This document shows positions 12,036 to 19,623 of a stretch of DNA of 64,000 nt, piece after piece. Location: the NCBI RefSeq assembly GCF_011398155.1, contig NZ_AP021888.1, positions 2,082,001 to 2,146,000 of the forward strand. Direction: 5' to 3'. Made by a program: the position numbers and the translations under genes. Below the pieces are notes generated by a model. That model made no database searches. It saw only the letters and a program-made list of their open reading frames with translations, and had not been told where the DNA came from. Every line of letters starts with the position of its first letter. Positions within the stretch are counted from its first letter, which is position 1. The DNA is from Thiosulfativibrio zosterae. Lineage in GTDB: Bacteria > Pseudomonadota > Gammaproteobacteria > Thiomicrospirales > Thiomicrospiraceae.

Positions 12036-13967
12036 ATGGCCAATCTTTTTCTTCGTGACATTCAACTCGCCTTTGGCACCACCACACTCCTCGACCGCGT
12101 TAACCTCACCATTGAAGACAACGAGCGCCTGTGTATTGTCGGGCGTAATGGCCAAGGCAAATCCACCTTACTTAAAATTATTGAAGGCTCGATTGACGCA
12201 GACGACGGCACGCGCGTAGTGCCCGATGGCATTCGCATTGCCAAACTGCAACAAGAAGTGCCACATGATTTAACCGGTTCGGTCTTTCACACCATTGCGA
12301 TGGGGTTGGGTAATTTAGGGCAACTGATTGAGCGTTACCACCAACTCAGTCACGAAATGGCCGACAATTATTCTGAAGCCTTGATGGACGAGCTGTCTAA
12401 GGTTCAACACGAACTCGACAGCAAAAATGGCTGGGATTTAAACACCCAAGTCGAAACTCTCATTTCTAAACTGTCTTTGCCTGCCGATGCGGAATTTTCA
12501 GATTTATCGGGCGGTATGAAGCGCCGTGTATTGTTGGCGCAAGCCTTAATTCAAGACCCTAACATTTTATTACTAGACGAACCGACCAACCACTTGGACA
12601 TTCCCTCCATTCAATGGCTTGAAGATTTCCTTAAAAACCTTAACTGCTCTTTGGTGTTTATCACCCACGACCGTTCCTTTTTGCAAGCCCTAGCAACACG
12701 CATTGTAGAACTTGACCGTGGCCATTTGCATAACTGGGAATGCGACTATCAAACCTATTTAGAACGCAAACAAGCGCAACTGGAATCTGAAGCCAAGAGC
12801 AACTCTGAGTTTGACAAAAAACTGGCGCAAGAAGAAGTTTGGATTCGCCAAGGCATTAAAGCCCGCCGCACCAGAAACGAAGGTCGCGTGCGTGCGCTCG
12901 AAAAATTGCGCGAAGAACACAAACAGCGCCGTAACCAACAAGGCAAGGTCAACTTCCAAGTCAACCGTGCTGAAAACTCCGGCAAACAAGTCATCGAAGT
13001 GGAAGACCTGCATTTTGAATGGCCAACCCATACCGTGGTGGATGATTTGTCTTGTATGGTGATGCGTGGCGATAAGGTCGGTATTATTGGTGAAAACGGT
13101 TGTGGAAAATCAACCCTGATTAATTTGCTATTGGGTAAACTAGAACCCACTTCCGGAACGGTTAAAATCGGCACCAATATCAAGGTCGCCTACTTTGACC
13201 AACACCGTGAACAACTCAACGAAAACACCCCAGTGGTTGAAAGCGTGCTCGAAGAATCTGACTATGTTGAAATCAATGGTCAGCGCAAACACATTATGAG
13301 TTATTTGGGTGACTTCTTGTTTACGCCCGACCGCGCGCGTCAACCCGTTAAAGCCCTATCGGGGGGGGAACGCAATCGTTTGTTATTGGCACGCGTATTC
13401 GCCAAACCGTCCAACCTACTGATTTTGGATGAACCCACTAACGACCTAGATATTGAAACCCTCGAACTACTCGAAGACCTACTGCTGAATTACACCGGCA
13501 CTGTGCTCATCGTTAGCCACGACCGTGCCTTCTTAAACAATGTGGTGACCAGCTCGATTGTGTTTGATGCACCGGGCATCGTCAATGAATATGTCGGTGG
13601 ATACGACGATTGGTTGCGTCAGCGCCCAGCGGAATTTCAAGGCGCCAGCAAAAATATCAAAATCACCAAAAAATCCGCTCCCAAACCCGAAGTCATGGAA
13701 AGCAAACCGGCGCCAGCGGCCGTGGTTGAGGCAGATAAAAAGCCCAAAAAACTCAGCTATAAAGATCAGCGCGAGTATGACGAGCTACCCAAAAAAATCG
13801 AAGACCTTGAAAAACAGCTAGAAGGGCTGAGTGCCGAAATGTGCGAAGCCGACTTTTTTCAAAGAACTGACAGCCAAAAGGTTTTAGATAAGATGAAATA
13901 TTTAGAAGGCGAACTCGAAAAAGCCTTTGAACGCTGGGAAATTTTAGAAGCCATGGTGATGGGGTAA
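12036..13967 (+). CDS. uup: ABC-F ATPase Uup
   Basis: A 643-residue ABC-F protein with two ATPase domains: Walker A GRNGQGKST and GENGCGKST, signatures LSGGMKRR and LSGGERNR, and Walker B LLLDEPTNHLD and LILDEPTNDLD. A linker lies between, and a charged, coiled C-terminal domain follows a Pro/Lys-rich tether (about 550-570), which is diagnostic for Uup against EttA or YheS. There is no membrane domain. Uup acts on the ribosome and in DNA repair intermediates (family knowledge). GGAAG lies upstream of the ATG. Confidence 0.9.
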   Translation: MANLFLRDIQLAFGTTTLLDRVNLTIEDNERLCIVGRNGQGKSTLLKIIEGSIDADDGTRVVPDGIRIAKLQQEVPHDLTGSVFHTIAMGLGNLGQLIERYHQLSHEMADNYSEALMDELSKVQHELDSKNGWDLNTQVETLISKLSLPADAEFSDLSGGMKRRVLLAQALIQDPNILLLDEPTNHLDIPSIQWLEDFLKNLNCSLVFITHDRSFLQALATRIVELDRGHLHNWECDYQTYLERKQAQLESEAKSNSEFDKKLAQEEVWIRQGIKARRTRNEGRVRALEKLREEHKQRRNQQGKVNFQVNRAENSGKQVIEVEDLHFEWPTHTVVDDLSCMVMRGDKVGIIGENGCGKSTLINLLLGKLEPTSGTVKIGTNIKVAYFDQHREQLNENTPVVESVLEESDYVEINGQRKHIMSYLGDFLFTPDRARQPVKALSGGERNRLLLARVFAKPSNLLILDEPTNDLDIETLELLEDLLLNYTGTVLIVSHDRAFLNNVVTSSIVFDAPGIVNEYVGGYDDWLRQRPAEFQGASKNIKITKKSAPKPEVMESKPAPAAVVEADKKPKKLSYKDQREYDELPKKIEDLEKQLEGLSAEMCEADFFQRTDSQKVLDKMKYLEGELEKAFERWEILEAMVMG

Positions 13968-13970
13968 AAA

Positions 13971-14064
13971 TTCTAAGAAGGCTAAAGCCTTCGCCCCTTT
14001 AGATTTAAAAATAGCATAACTGGGGCGCAGGCTTTAGCCTGCTTTCAACTTAAATCAAAATATT
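13971..14064. repeat. 90-bp hairpin repeat, copy A
   Basis: Contains AAGGCTAAAGCCTT, then CGCCCC, then GGGGCG and GCAGGCTTTAGCCTGC. The two halves are imperfect inverted repeats, so each copy can fold on itself. Nearly identical to copy B 390 bp away. Confidence 0.9.
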
Positions 14065-14130
14065 GTACTTACATTATTAATGTCGCTTTTTGGCTTTGTG
14101 TTTTCTGATTGAGAATTGTTCTTAGCGCCC

Positions 14131-14346
14131 TTGTCACTTTTTGGCTCGCCCAAAAAGTAACCAAAAAATCGACCCTCTCATCATTTCTATGCCCCTAAAA
14201 CTCAGGACTGGAAAGTGGCGAACTCGCTGCGCTCAAACAGCGCCACTTTTTCTCCAGTCCTTTCGTTAAGGGGCATCACGAAATGATTCAAAGGGAATTT
14301 TAGGCATTCTGAAAGACCCGTTTTTCTTTTCAGAAGAAAGTGACAA
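14131..14346. repeat. Nested inverted-repeat element
   Basis: Pairs seen directly, from outside in: TTGTCACTTT 14131-14140 with AAAGTGACAA 14337-14346; TCATTTC 14181-14187 with GAAATGA 14280-14286; ATGCCCCT 14189-14196 with AGGGGCAT 14269-14276; AGGACTGGA 14204-14212 with TCCAGTCCT 14253-14261; AAGTGGCG 14213-14220 with CGCCACTT 14241-14248. The central 106 bp would form a long stem in DNA or RNA. No ORF fits. It may be a non-autonomous mobile element or a structured RNA. Confidence 0.75.
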
Positions 14347-14361
14347 GAACCCAGAGCAAAA

Positions 14362-14453
14362 ATCTAGGAAGGCTAAAGCCTTCGCCCCTTTAGATTTAAA
14401 AATGTAATAACTGGGGCGCAGGCTTTAGCCTGCTTTCAACTTAAATCAAAAAA
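14362..14453. repeat. 90-bp hairpin repeat, copy B
   Basis: A direct repeat of copy A with only scattered differences, including the shared tail GCTTTCAACTTAAATCAAAA. Together the copies bracket the inverted-repeat element. Confidence 0.9.
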
Positions 14454-14485
14454 TGTTTCTAGATTTTAACGGCTGATTTAATAGC

Positions 14486-16090
14486 TCATTTGATCAAACC
14501 AAAACGCTTCATCATCCACAACCCCAAAAACCCAACACCTAATAACACCAAAGAAGGCACCGCCGCTCTTTCATAAAGCCCATCGGCACTCAACTCATAA
14601 ATCCGAATCGCCAAGGTTTCCCATCCAAACGGACGCAATAAATAAGTGGCGGGTAATTCTTTAGAAACATCTAAAAACACCAATAACGCCGCACTGAGCA
14701 AACCAGGCTTAAGCAAAGGCAAGTAAATTTGCCAAACTAAACGCGGTTTGCTGGCGCCCATATTACGGGCGGCTTCAATAATGCTGGGTTTAATACTTAA
14801 AAATCGACTGTAAACTGGCCCATGTGCCACCGCCATAAACCGCACCAAATAAGCCAGCAACAACGCCCAAAGTCCGCCCATCATCAATTGGGCATTAAAG
14901 GTTTGATTAAACTGCGTCAACACGCCCATCACCCCAATCGCTAAAACAATGCCCGGCAAGGCATAGCCCATTTTGCCCAATTCTAACACCCATTGTAACC
15001 AACGCTTTTTGGGATATTGCACCTGTTGACTGCTCATAAACACCGCTGCCGTCACCGTGATGCTGACTGCCATGACCGATAATAGCAAGGTATTCGCTAA
15101 CCAGTCCCAATAACGCTTATCCCATTCAATTTGTAGCGTCTGAGCTGCCCAAATAGCCAATTGAATTAAGGGCAATCCTAAAGCTAACATCATAAAGCTG
15201 GTAAAAAAACCCGTTAACAGCCACTGCTTTGCTTTAGAAACTTCAAAAGGCGGCTGAGTGATTTTGGACTGTTGCGTAAAGCGGCGTTTGCCGCGGGTTA
15301 AACGCTCTATACCCAACAATAACAAGGCCAAAAATAACACCAAAGTGGACAGTTGTGCCGCTAACGCCAAAGATCGAAAATCTTCCCAAGCACTGTAAAT
15401 GGCCGTGGTAAAGGTGGCAAAATTAAATAAAGACACGGCGCCAAAATCTGCCAGCGTTTCCATGAGCGCCAAACCCAAGCCTGCGGCAATGGCAGGTCTG
15501 GCTAGGGGCACACTGATGCGCCAAAAAACACAAGCCGCACCACAGCCTAAACTTCGAGCGGTTTCGATACTGCTGGTGGATTGATTGGCAAAAGCCGTTT
15601 TACTGAGGATGTACACATAAGGATAAAACACTAAAGACAGGACTAAAATCGGCGCCAATGCGCCTTCTCGAATATCAATGGGTTGCCAACCGATTTGCGC
15701 CAGCCCTTGTTGCAAGGGGCCGCTGTAATCAATCAACCCCAAAAATACAAATGCCAACACATAGGCAGGCATGGCAAAAGGCAACAACAATAACCAACTA
15801 AAGGTTTTACGCCCAGGAAACTCCACCATCACCACCAACCAAGCCAACCCCACCCCTAAGAGCAAAGTGCCAAGCGTTACGCCAAGCAACAATAACAGCG
15901 TATTACTGACCAATTCTGGTAACAGGGTATCGGCAAAATGCTGCCAAAGCTCGGGGTCTGACTCAAACCAACCGCTAAACAGTTGCAGCGTTGGCAAGAG
16001 TAAAATGAGCAACAGCAGAAAAAGCAAAAAGCCCATAAACAACTTCATGGGCTCTAGAGGGGTGATTGCTTTGCGAGATAAGTTAAACAA
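14486..16090 (-). CDS. fbpB: Fe(III) ABC transporter permease (FbpB type)
   Basis: A 534-residue inner-membrane permease with about twelve hydrophobic segments in two related halves. EAA-loop-like segments occur in each half (ETARSLGCGAACVFWRI and EAARNMGASKPRLVW), the ATPase docking sites. The double-length fused permease is typical of FbpB/SfuB iron(III) importers. It is the last gene of an ATPase-binding protein-permease operon and starts 9 bp after the binding-protein gene ends. Confidence 0.87.
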   Translation of the reverse strand: MFNLSRKAITPLEPMKLFMGFLLFLLLLILLLPTLQLFSGWFESDPELWQHFADTLLPELVSNTLLLLLGVTLGTLLLGVGLAWLVVMVEFPGRKTFSWLLLLPFAMPAYVLAFVFLGLIDYSGPLQQGLAQIGWQPIDIREGALAPILVLSLVFYPYVYILSKTAFANQSTSSIETARSLGCGAACVFWRISVPLARPAIAAGLGLALMETLADFGAVSLFNFATFTTAIYSAWEDFRSLALAAQLSTLVLFLALLLLGIERLTRGKRRFTQQSKITQPPFEVSKAKQWLLTGFFTSFMMLALGLPLIQLAIWAAQTLQIEWDKRYWDWLANTLLLSVMAVSITVTAAVFMSSQQVQYPKKRWLQWVLELGKMGYALPGIVLAIGVMGVLTQFNQTFNAQLMMGGLWALLLAYLVRFMAVAHGPVYSRFLSIKPSIIEAARNMGASKPRLVWQIYLPLLKPGLLSAALLVFLDVSKELPATYLLRPFGWETLAIRIYELSADGLYERAAVPSLVLLGVGFLGLWMMKRFGLIK

Positions 16091-19495: not shown

Positions 19496-19529
19496 TCATT
19501 AAAACTCTATGAACACCCAATAAAAAGGA

Positions 19530-19549
19530 GCGCAGGCTTTAGCCTGCTT
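19530..19549. repeat. Partial copy of the 90-bp hairpin repeat
   Basis: GCGCAGGCTTTAGCCTGCTT matches the right half of the repeats at 13971 and 14362. It sits just after the DUF853 gene. Confidence 0.85.
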
Positions 19550-19623
19550 AAAACTCATTTGCTAACATTCAGTTAGGGCTTAGGAAGCAACCCCATTAAA
19601 TAGGGTTATTTCTAAGCAATTTT

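Follow-up and report, generated by a model that had tools for sequence, protein, structure and literature searches.

In the 64,000-nucleotide stretch of Thiosulfativibrio zosterae DNA analysed here (the window), the gap between two convergent genes is filled by a composite of two REP-type inverted doublets (REPINs) flanking a structured element of about 200 nt. This central element is a family separate from the REPs, joined to them in the genome of the window, and on balance we lean towards the view that it is a dispersed, non-autonomous intergenic element encoding a minus-strand RNA, a long hairpin that would end 3' in a triple-helix pseudoknot of the telomerase type. It adds to the bacterial repertoire a structured non-coding element of several phyla, linked to REP/RAYT systems, that was unannotated wherever annotation was seen. 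If the triple helix is real, it would be a very recurrent triple-helix pseudoknot and offer a route to the factor that recognises it.

The composite locus

Positions 13968-14485 are exactly the gap between a gene for an ABC ATPase, by inference of the ABC-F type, that ends at 13967 and a convergent ABC permease gene that ends at 14486. No open reading frame of at least 80 aa covers this stretch, in line with the statement of an earlier sequence-only reading that no coding sequence explains it. The two near-identical repeats of some 90 bp which that reading saw around the centre are real: the segments 13967-14063 and 14358-14454 are direct repeats of 97 bp each, 94% identical, and each is an inverted REP doublet. 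Nested inverted repeats are present between them, as had also been noticed, and the predicted folding goes beyond chance, with an RNA fold of -91.5 kcal/mol for the central 281 nt against -65.3 (sd 5.4) in 200 shuffles (z -4.83, 0/200 as low) and, for the whole 518-nt stretch as ssDNA, a z value of -8.70 (0/100 shuffles as low). The partial copy reported near 19530 turned out to be a single REP. The features are:

13967-14063, plus strand: left REPIN, two inverted REP palindromes (13980, 14030) with the GGGGCG tag on each facing inward
14082-14130, no strand assigned: leader on the head side, an imperfect stem H0 GTCGC..GCGCC (pairing by eye), kept among the copies of this genome (13-copy alignment)
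14133-14161, minus strand (the inferred RNA strand): head stem S2, arms 14133-14144 and 14150-14161 (GTCACTTTTTGG / CCAAAAAGTAAC), loop 14145-14149
14163-14168, minus strand: pyrimidine loop strand L1, minus-strand UUUUUU, which mirrors the purine run of the stem at 14152-14156; putative third strand of a triple helix
14170-14172, minus strand: pseudoknot partner CGA, pairing with the head loop TCG at 14146-14148
14173-14295, minus strand: body, the long hairpin H2, arms about 14173-14220 and 14240-14295
14221-14239, minus strand: apical loop AACTCGCTGCGCTCAAACA, on the minus strand UGUUUGAGCGCAGCGAGUU, with GCGNAGC inside
14307-14347, no strand assigned: tail, a small hairpin TTCTGAAA..TTTCAGAA, plus AAAGTGACAAG, which is complementary to 14130-14140
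14358-14454, plus strand: right REPIN, palindromes at 14371 and 14421, direct repeat of the left REPIN (94%)
19527-19555, plus strand: solitary REP, palindrome at 19535

The long hairpin of the window element is thus capped by AACTCGCTNCGCTCAAACA, a single 19-nt apical loop.

Copies and spread of the central element

The sequence-only reading had made its proposal dependent on a second copy of the central stem and on compensatory substitutions in its pairs. Besides the window copy, 12 further strong matches to the centre are present in the genome: the central 281 bp gives 13 matches below E 1e-14 at nine loci, nine of them at 86-100% and four at 71-73% identity, while the other 31 of the 44 reported matches have E values above 0.3. 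Members of the divergent subfamily (71-73% identical to the window copy; contig G000:C1 at 238749, 378814, 1813075 and 2449819) were each found beside a first-subfamily copy, inverted to it, and nowhere else.

In a search of 39 genomes (that of the window, relatives and other families of the class), four matched, the window genome counted. A genome of another genus in the same family (G012) holds two copies and one of another family (G032) holds one, and none of these three loci carries window-type REPs; the fourth genome (G006) gave two short apex-only matches. The exact combination of head and apex was found in at least 118 stretches of named genomes, with 80 loci among the matches listed, and the latter include Thiomicrorhabdus, Comamonadaceae, Methylotenera, Pasteurellaceae, Parabacteroides, Cyclobacteriaceae, Microscilla, Chitinophaga, Nitrospirales, Desulfobacterales, Phascolarctobacterium and a Nomurabacteria MAG; these names come from record titles, and some records are MAGs in which binning errors are possible. 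The architecture as such recurs in Proteobacteria, Bacteroidota, Nitrospirales, Desulfobacterales, Negativicutes and Fusobacteriota. A REP palindrome of the window type stands within 300 bp of two of the 88 named copies and is missing near the other 86, so that the centre is independent of the flanks. The earlier guess of a non-autonomous element therefore holds in that the composite behaves as dispersed, and fails in that flank and centre are not one unit, being two independent families joined here.

Ascertainment of the apex by the combined pattern is sidestepped by a search with the head only, which matched in 14 of 249 genomes of the window's phylum (window genome included), with 0 matches for a reversed-pattern control. 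Among 30 loci from this search there are type I apices (some with CAGACA) and also quite different bodies. An over-strict pattern, found in 1 of 369 genomes, missed the window genome too and is not counted as a negative. A third kind of body, with the same head and the apex ATAGTCGGTAAACCTTCTT, occurs on a 0.96-Mb plasmid of Ilyobacter polytropus (Fusobacteriota; L308:3001-3180), where six places were reported.

Several vehicles and partners were considered and rejected. The largest clusters of protein genes shared next to the element (15 printed) are spurious open reading frames inside the repeat or ordinary families. With respect to phages, the exact pattern occurs in 0 stretches of a viral-contig collection, and two queries found none in 50,697 phage records. 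Among 72,556 plasmid records one query gave 0 matches and another 12, of which 11 are on replicons larger than 260 kb and 11 cover only the head fifth of the query. As in MITEs, copies are dispersed and have no coding capacity. Terminal repeats shared with a transposase gene were not found: with 13 Y1 genes compared, the nearest listed element on the same contig is 7 kb away (the Y1 family alone was searched). The junctions checked for target-site duplications are REP-rich, so that insertion ends are not definable there.

Pseudoknot and putative triple helix in the head

The head is an H-type pseudoknot, in which the loop of a hairpin pairs with a segment past an A-rich stretch; loop and partner read, for example, CTTGAT/ATCAAG, CTTGAC/GTCAAG, GTTGCC/GGCAAC and TCGCC/GGCGA. 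The phrases CACTTTTTGG and AAAAAGTAACCAAAAAA, which the sequence-only reading likened to proteobacterial intergenic repeats, belong to this head, and are present in many proteobacteria as well as in other phyla. For 99 non-redundant heads from 85 loci, compiled after removal of about a dozen wrong-strand readings, the pseudoknot helix has a mean length of 4.25 bp as compared to 3.36 bp (sd 0.08, maximum 3.60 of 500) with partners swapped; the test required AA at the start of the third strand, and the swap control was run under the same condition. Two rows, L102 and a wrong range at L002, were left out of one further analysis. The helix has at least 4 bp in 69 of the 99 heads and only 3 bp (TCG/CGA) in the window copy.

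The A-rich stretch mirrors the purine strand of the stem, as in AAAGAAAAG..AAAAGAAAG, AAGAAAAAG..AAAAAGAAG and AGAGAAAAG..AAAAGAGA. At 6.68 of its 8 positions this third strand agrees with the reversed purine strand, compared with 5.16 (sd 0.10, maximum 5.51 of 2000) for swapped partners and 4.06 of 8 when the same eight bases are read forward. The mirror reading is better than the forward one in 97/99 heads and worse in none, and when a direct repeat may take the best of four offsets, the mirror still wins in 69 heads and loses in 6, which disfavours a direct-repeat origin of the loop strand. In 62 of the 66 heads with a G in both strands the first G stands at the identical mirrored place; 23 heads have G on one strand only and 10 on neither. 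At one locus (L223 of G625), an unusual change in the purine strand of the stem recurs at the mirrored place of the loop strand, as if both had changed together.

Major-groove triples of the U·A-U and C+·G-C type require a third pyrimidine strand parallel to the purine strand. This is the arrangement on the minus strand, where the loop is a pyrimidine tract running parallel to the purine strand of the stem, with which it covaries as a parallel third strand. Judged from sequence, the mirror covariation bears the signature of a triple helix made of U·A-U and C+·G-C triples, such as telomerase RNA has, and the head would thus contain a triple-helix pseudoknot. The telomerase RNA pseudoknot has the strand order S1a, U-rich loop 1, S2a, S1b, S2b and a pyrimidine loop parallel to the purine strand, and the head shares both properties. 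The likeness is one of how the structure would work; no homology, template or linked reverse transcriptase was noticed in the course of the analysis.

Covariation in the hairpin body

The letters of the stem vary freely while pairing is retained, and compensatory changes are abundant. In 96 sequences, many of them related, the apical stem score (matches minus twice the mismatches) has a mean of 8.08, as compared to 3.02 with partners swapped and a maximum of 3.41 in 50 swaps; six of 85 matches without a recognisable 5' arm were left out of the apical-arm set, and copies that were redundant or near locus ends were omitted from the stem-score, gene-context and folding-energy sets. In an alignment of 38 sequences the covariation score is 0.571 against 0.203 (sd 0.029; 0/500 shuffles), each pair occurring with 5-6 pair types. 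This alignment is ungapped and mixes two registers, which is why sliding it by one column still leaves a score of 0.446. Two of five covariation measures are weaker: pairs changed on both sides were reached by 468 of 500 shuffles, and another measure by 8 of 500. The apical 19-mer belonged to the search pattern, so that its invariance is partly ascertainment. RNA model R1, which is without the apical stem, was set aside. The suggestion that the centre could be a structured RNA thus gains from covariation as strong as expected of structured RNA or ssDNA, and has to be modified in that the fold is richer than a set of nested hairpins.

Strand and functional form

The element was assigned to the minus strand mainly because, on the plus strand, the loop would be of purines and lie along the minor groove, and there a mirror rule is not to be expected. 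Matches above the cut-off to the Rfam family RF01731 lie on the strand opposite to the head-first one at 3/3 other head-bearing loci. Mismatches at head pairs are of the A·C type (G·U when read on the minus strand) in 45 cases and of the G·T type in one; 40 of the 45 are at one pair, and the excess is partly forced by search patterns that fixed one arm. The lower RNA folding energy of the minus strand was rejected as evidence: shuffles give the same difference of 9.6 kcal/mol, and the asymmetry is compositional (z -3.66 vs -3.70; 42 sequences). In Aggregatibacter (L108:4021-4200) an insertion interrupts the head stem and overlaps the Rfam small RNA AaHKsRNA22 on the opposite, head-first strand; this RNA counts against the strand assignment and, overlapping an interrupted head and lying on the other strand, was not accepted as proof of expression. 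The lack of enrichment of intrinsic terminators downstream of the head speaks against the minus strand as well. Transcription, the mechanism of mobility and the RNA rather than ssDNA nature of the element are matters that we infer.

It is possible, though rather unlikely, that the functional form is ssDNA (or H-DNA or a cruciform) exposed at replication, and that an HUH-type or other nuclease-transposase copies the element, with pseudoknot and mirror repeat acting as DNA signals. Y1 HUH transposase genes occur in 19 of 24 genomes, a count that covers element-bearing genomes only, and REPs, which are thought to be moved by such enzymes, abut the element in two unrelated lineages. The mirror repeat would suit a DNA triplex too, the composite folds strongly as ssDNA (z -8.70, as given above), and the minus-strand apex reads GCGNAGC, an unusually stable DNA mini-hairpin. 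However, Y1 was not detected in 5/24 element-bearing genomes, one of which has eight element matches, and no listed copy lies within 5 kb of the 13 Y1 genes (four genomes); because of these two observations, a Y1 enzyme explains the REPINs better than the element. Furthermore, mirror arms of 8-9 bp are short for H-DNA, in which the pseudoknot helix would also have no role. A protein mobilising the element was not found.

Flanking REPINs and the Y1 transposase gene

In each flank, the palindrome GGCTAAAGCC/GGCTTTAGCC occurs twice, as an inverted doublet with GGGGCG tags inward. Searched against the 2.65-Mb genome, the 93-bp flank has 156 reported matches at E<=10, a count in which one site may figure twice, the sequence being palindromic. 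Two REP palindromes, 41-53 bp apart, are present on each side at 9/9 element loci of the window genome, one of which has an additional REP palindrome some 800 bp off. All 18 doublets at these loci are of the inverted kind; the order found in the window is kept in 17 of them and reversed in one. The flanks fit the definition of REPINs in the available text of PMC3116915. The only Y1_Tnp gene detected in this genome (2603005-2603289) sits among the same REPs (2602696-2603608); its protein scores 55 bits (cut-off 23), and its best NCBIfam model is REP_Tyr_transpos at 63.6 bits, under the curated cut-off of 80. The gene is RAYT-like, and the REPINs have probably been moved by a RAYT-type Y1 transposase. 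A toxin-antitoxin-like pair, by eye of the VapBC kind, adjoins the Y1 gene at 2603005 (G000:C1), with REPs on both sides.

With REPINs or BIMEs that depend on a RAYT, the locus has in common the flanking inverted REP doublets of about 93 bp and a RAYT-like gene among REPs; it differs in the tag and in a central element of about 200 nt that is not a REP. The tag superfamilies in the part of PMC3733652 available are GTAG and CGTC, and GGGGCG is outside both. The flanks are therefore of a known kind with an unusual tag. The earlier comparison with REP/BIME elements was apt for them, also in view of the Y1 gene among the same REPs, and does not extend to the centre.

An ordinary REP/BIME- or MITE-type composite moved by RAYT, in which the central hairpin would be passive cargo whose structure reflects its hairpin origin, seems improbable. 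It would account for the bracketing by REP doublets at all nine loci, REPINs together with a Y1 gene being the classical set, and the niche between convergent genes is common to both. Against it stand the 86 of 88 named copies without such a REP nearby, and the covariation of stems, pseudoknot and triplex strand across phyla, which is unexpected of passive cargo.

Relation to TwoAYGGAY and other repeats

TwoAYGGAY is described, in the text of PMC2864571 that is available, as probably an RNA and probably not cis-regulatory, from human gut, gammaproteobacteria and Clostridiales; in Rfam it is typed as cis-regulatory (RF01731, clan CL00106). At the gathering score, its covariance model has no match in the window or its genome. 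At E<=0.01 and in 15 genomes, there are at least 41, 30, 12 and 7 matches in four genomes and at least 5 and 4, all below the cut-off, in two others, these counts being lower bounds because just 98 candidates were scored in the largest genomes; no matches were found in the other nine (the window's included) or in 14 control genomes. A strict head stands beside 7 of 30 RF01731 loci when the 3' side is searched, and several others have degenerate heads by eye; no head was seen at the weak matches of G617 and G295. For the 25 loci that could be searched on both sides (five were left out on account of contig edges), a head motif in matching orientation lies 3' in seven and 5' in none, and one in opposite orientation 3' in one and 5' in none.

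The two elements thus share a long outer hairpin, multiple copies and, after some copies, the same 3' pseudoknot-triplex head, and in G108, too, close copies of TwoAYGGAY are only divergent pairs (11/11). They differ in the body, with two AYGGAY hairpins in TwoAYGGAY and a single apical loop of 19 nt in the window element, and the Rfam model as matched stops short of the head. The class I element of the window is not a member of TwoAYGGAY, and is a new class sharing its head. Rfam and text searches of the literature, mostly of open-access main texts, gave no title or passage describing the head; the centre as a whole is of the kind of orphan structured RNA families. For TwoAYGGAY, an orphan candidate RNA, the comparison suggests which 3' domain may be missing and which strand is likely, and gives a structure that can be tested. 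Binding of CsrA has been proposed for TwoAYGGAY (PMC4333381, in the text available); on the face of the apex, this idea does not extend to the window element, because its apex is without GGA.

Two further groups of repeats were compared by description. TIR repeats and TIRtrons, which according to the part of PMC3733652 available are longer repeats tied to Y1 transposases, often dimeric and most numerous in S. maltophilia, resemble the element in these respects, whereas the latter has no listed copy within 5 kb of a Y1 gene. R26, R178 and R200, intergenic repeats of Pseudomonas described in the available text of PMC2718517, share its size range (101-352 bp) and a tail-to-tail gene bias, and could be relatives of the central element.

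Proposed mechanism

According to the RNA reading that we favour, the transcribed or single-stranded minus strand would fold into the long hairpin, with its lineage-specific apex, and the triple-helix head, in the order S1a, U-rich L1, S2a, S1b, S2b and with L1 lying in the major groove of S2. The head may shield the 3' end or mark it for a trans-acting factor; machinery encoded elsewhere would occasionally copy the element into intergenic sites. Copies would survive best between convergent genes. Every copy found in the window genome has REPIN doublets on both sides; there the element would travel or be trapped between REPINs, and a RAYT may also carry the whole unit as cargo. A more far-reaching and quite speculative version, to which we give little credence, is that of a pan-bacterial SINE-like RNA element, with the 3' triple-helix pseudoknot as a handle for a widespread trans-acting enzyme (e.g. 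a reverse transcriptase) that copies the RNA into new intergenic sites, and with bodies that are interchangeable by lineage (class I apex, TwoAYGGAY, others).

Arrangement of copies, gene context, gain and loss

Copies less than 400 bp apart are always tail-to-tail (32/32), which is 5'-to-5' in the inferred RNA sense: 4/4 in the window genome, 10/10 in four genomes of one genus, 11/11 in G108 and 7/7 at named loci. These counts, and those on the distance to Y1 genes, exclude all matches of G678 and three short head matches that are palindromic in themselves. In the genus of G617, by inference Stenotrophomonas-like, several spacers between paired copies are, by eye, a GTAG-type REP hairpin.

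Between convergent genes are 31 of 75 copies, as compared to 53 of 361 background pairs, or 19 of 108 when gaps larger than 150 bp are taken, and six of the nine loci in the window genome. That the element terminates transcription in both directions or stabilises mRNA ends between convergent genes would agree with this context, yet it is very improbable in view of the 44/75 copies outside convergent gene pairs, the lack of enrichment of intrinsic terminators downstream of the head (3/42, controls 6/42 and 3/42) and the fact that termination needs no specific pseudoknot, triplex or apex.

At one orthologous junction in the genus of G617, the best 30 loci from 61 genomes comprise eight with a full element, three with remnants (head only; apex deleted; body only) and 19 with none, which hold REPs or little else. 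Copies are therefore gained, truncated and lost, in a niche shared with REPs. In Thiomicrorhabdus sp. Milos-T2 (L080, L095, L112, L115, L117, L120 and L143), copies are embedded in a longer unit, itself repeated, that has a GAAGCCT..AGGCTTC stem and, further out, imperfect inverted repeats.
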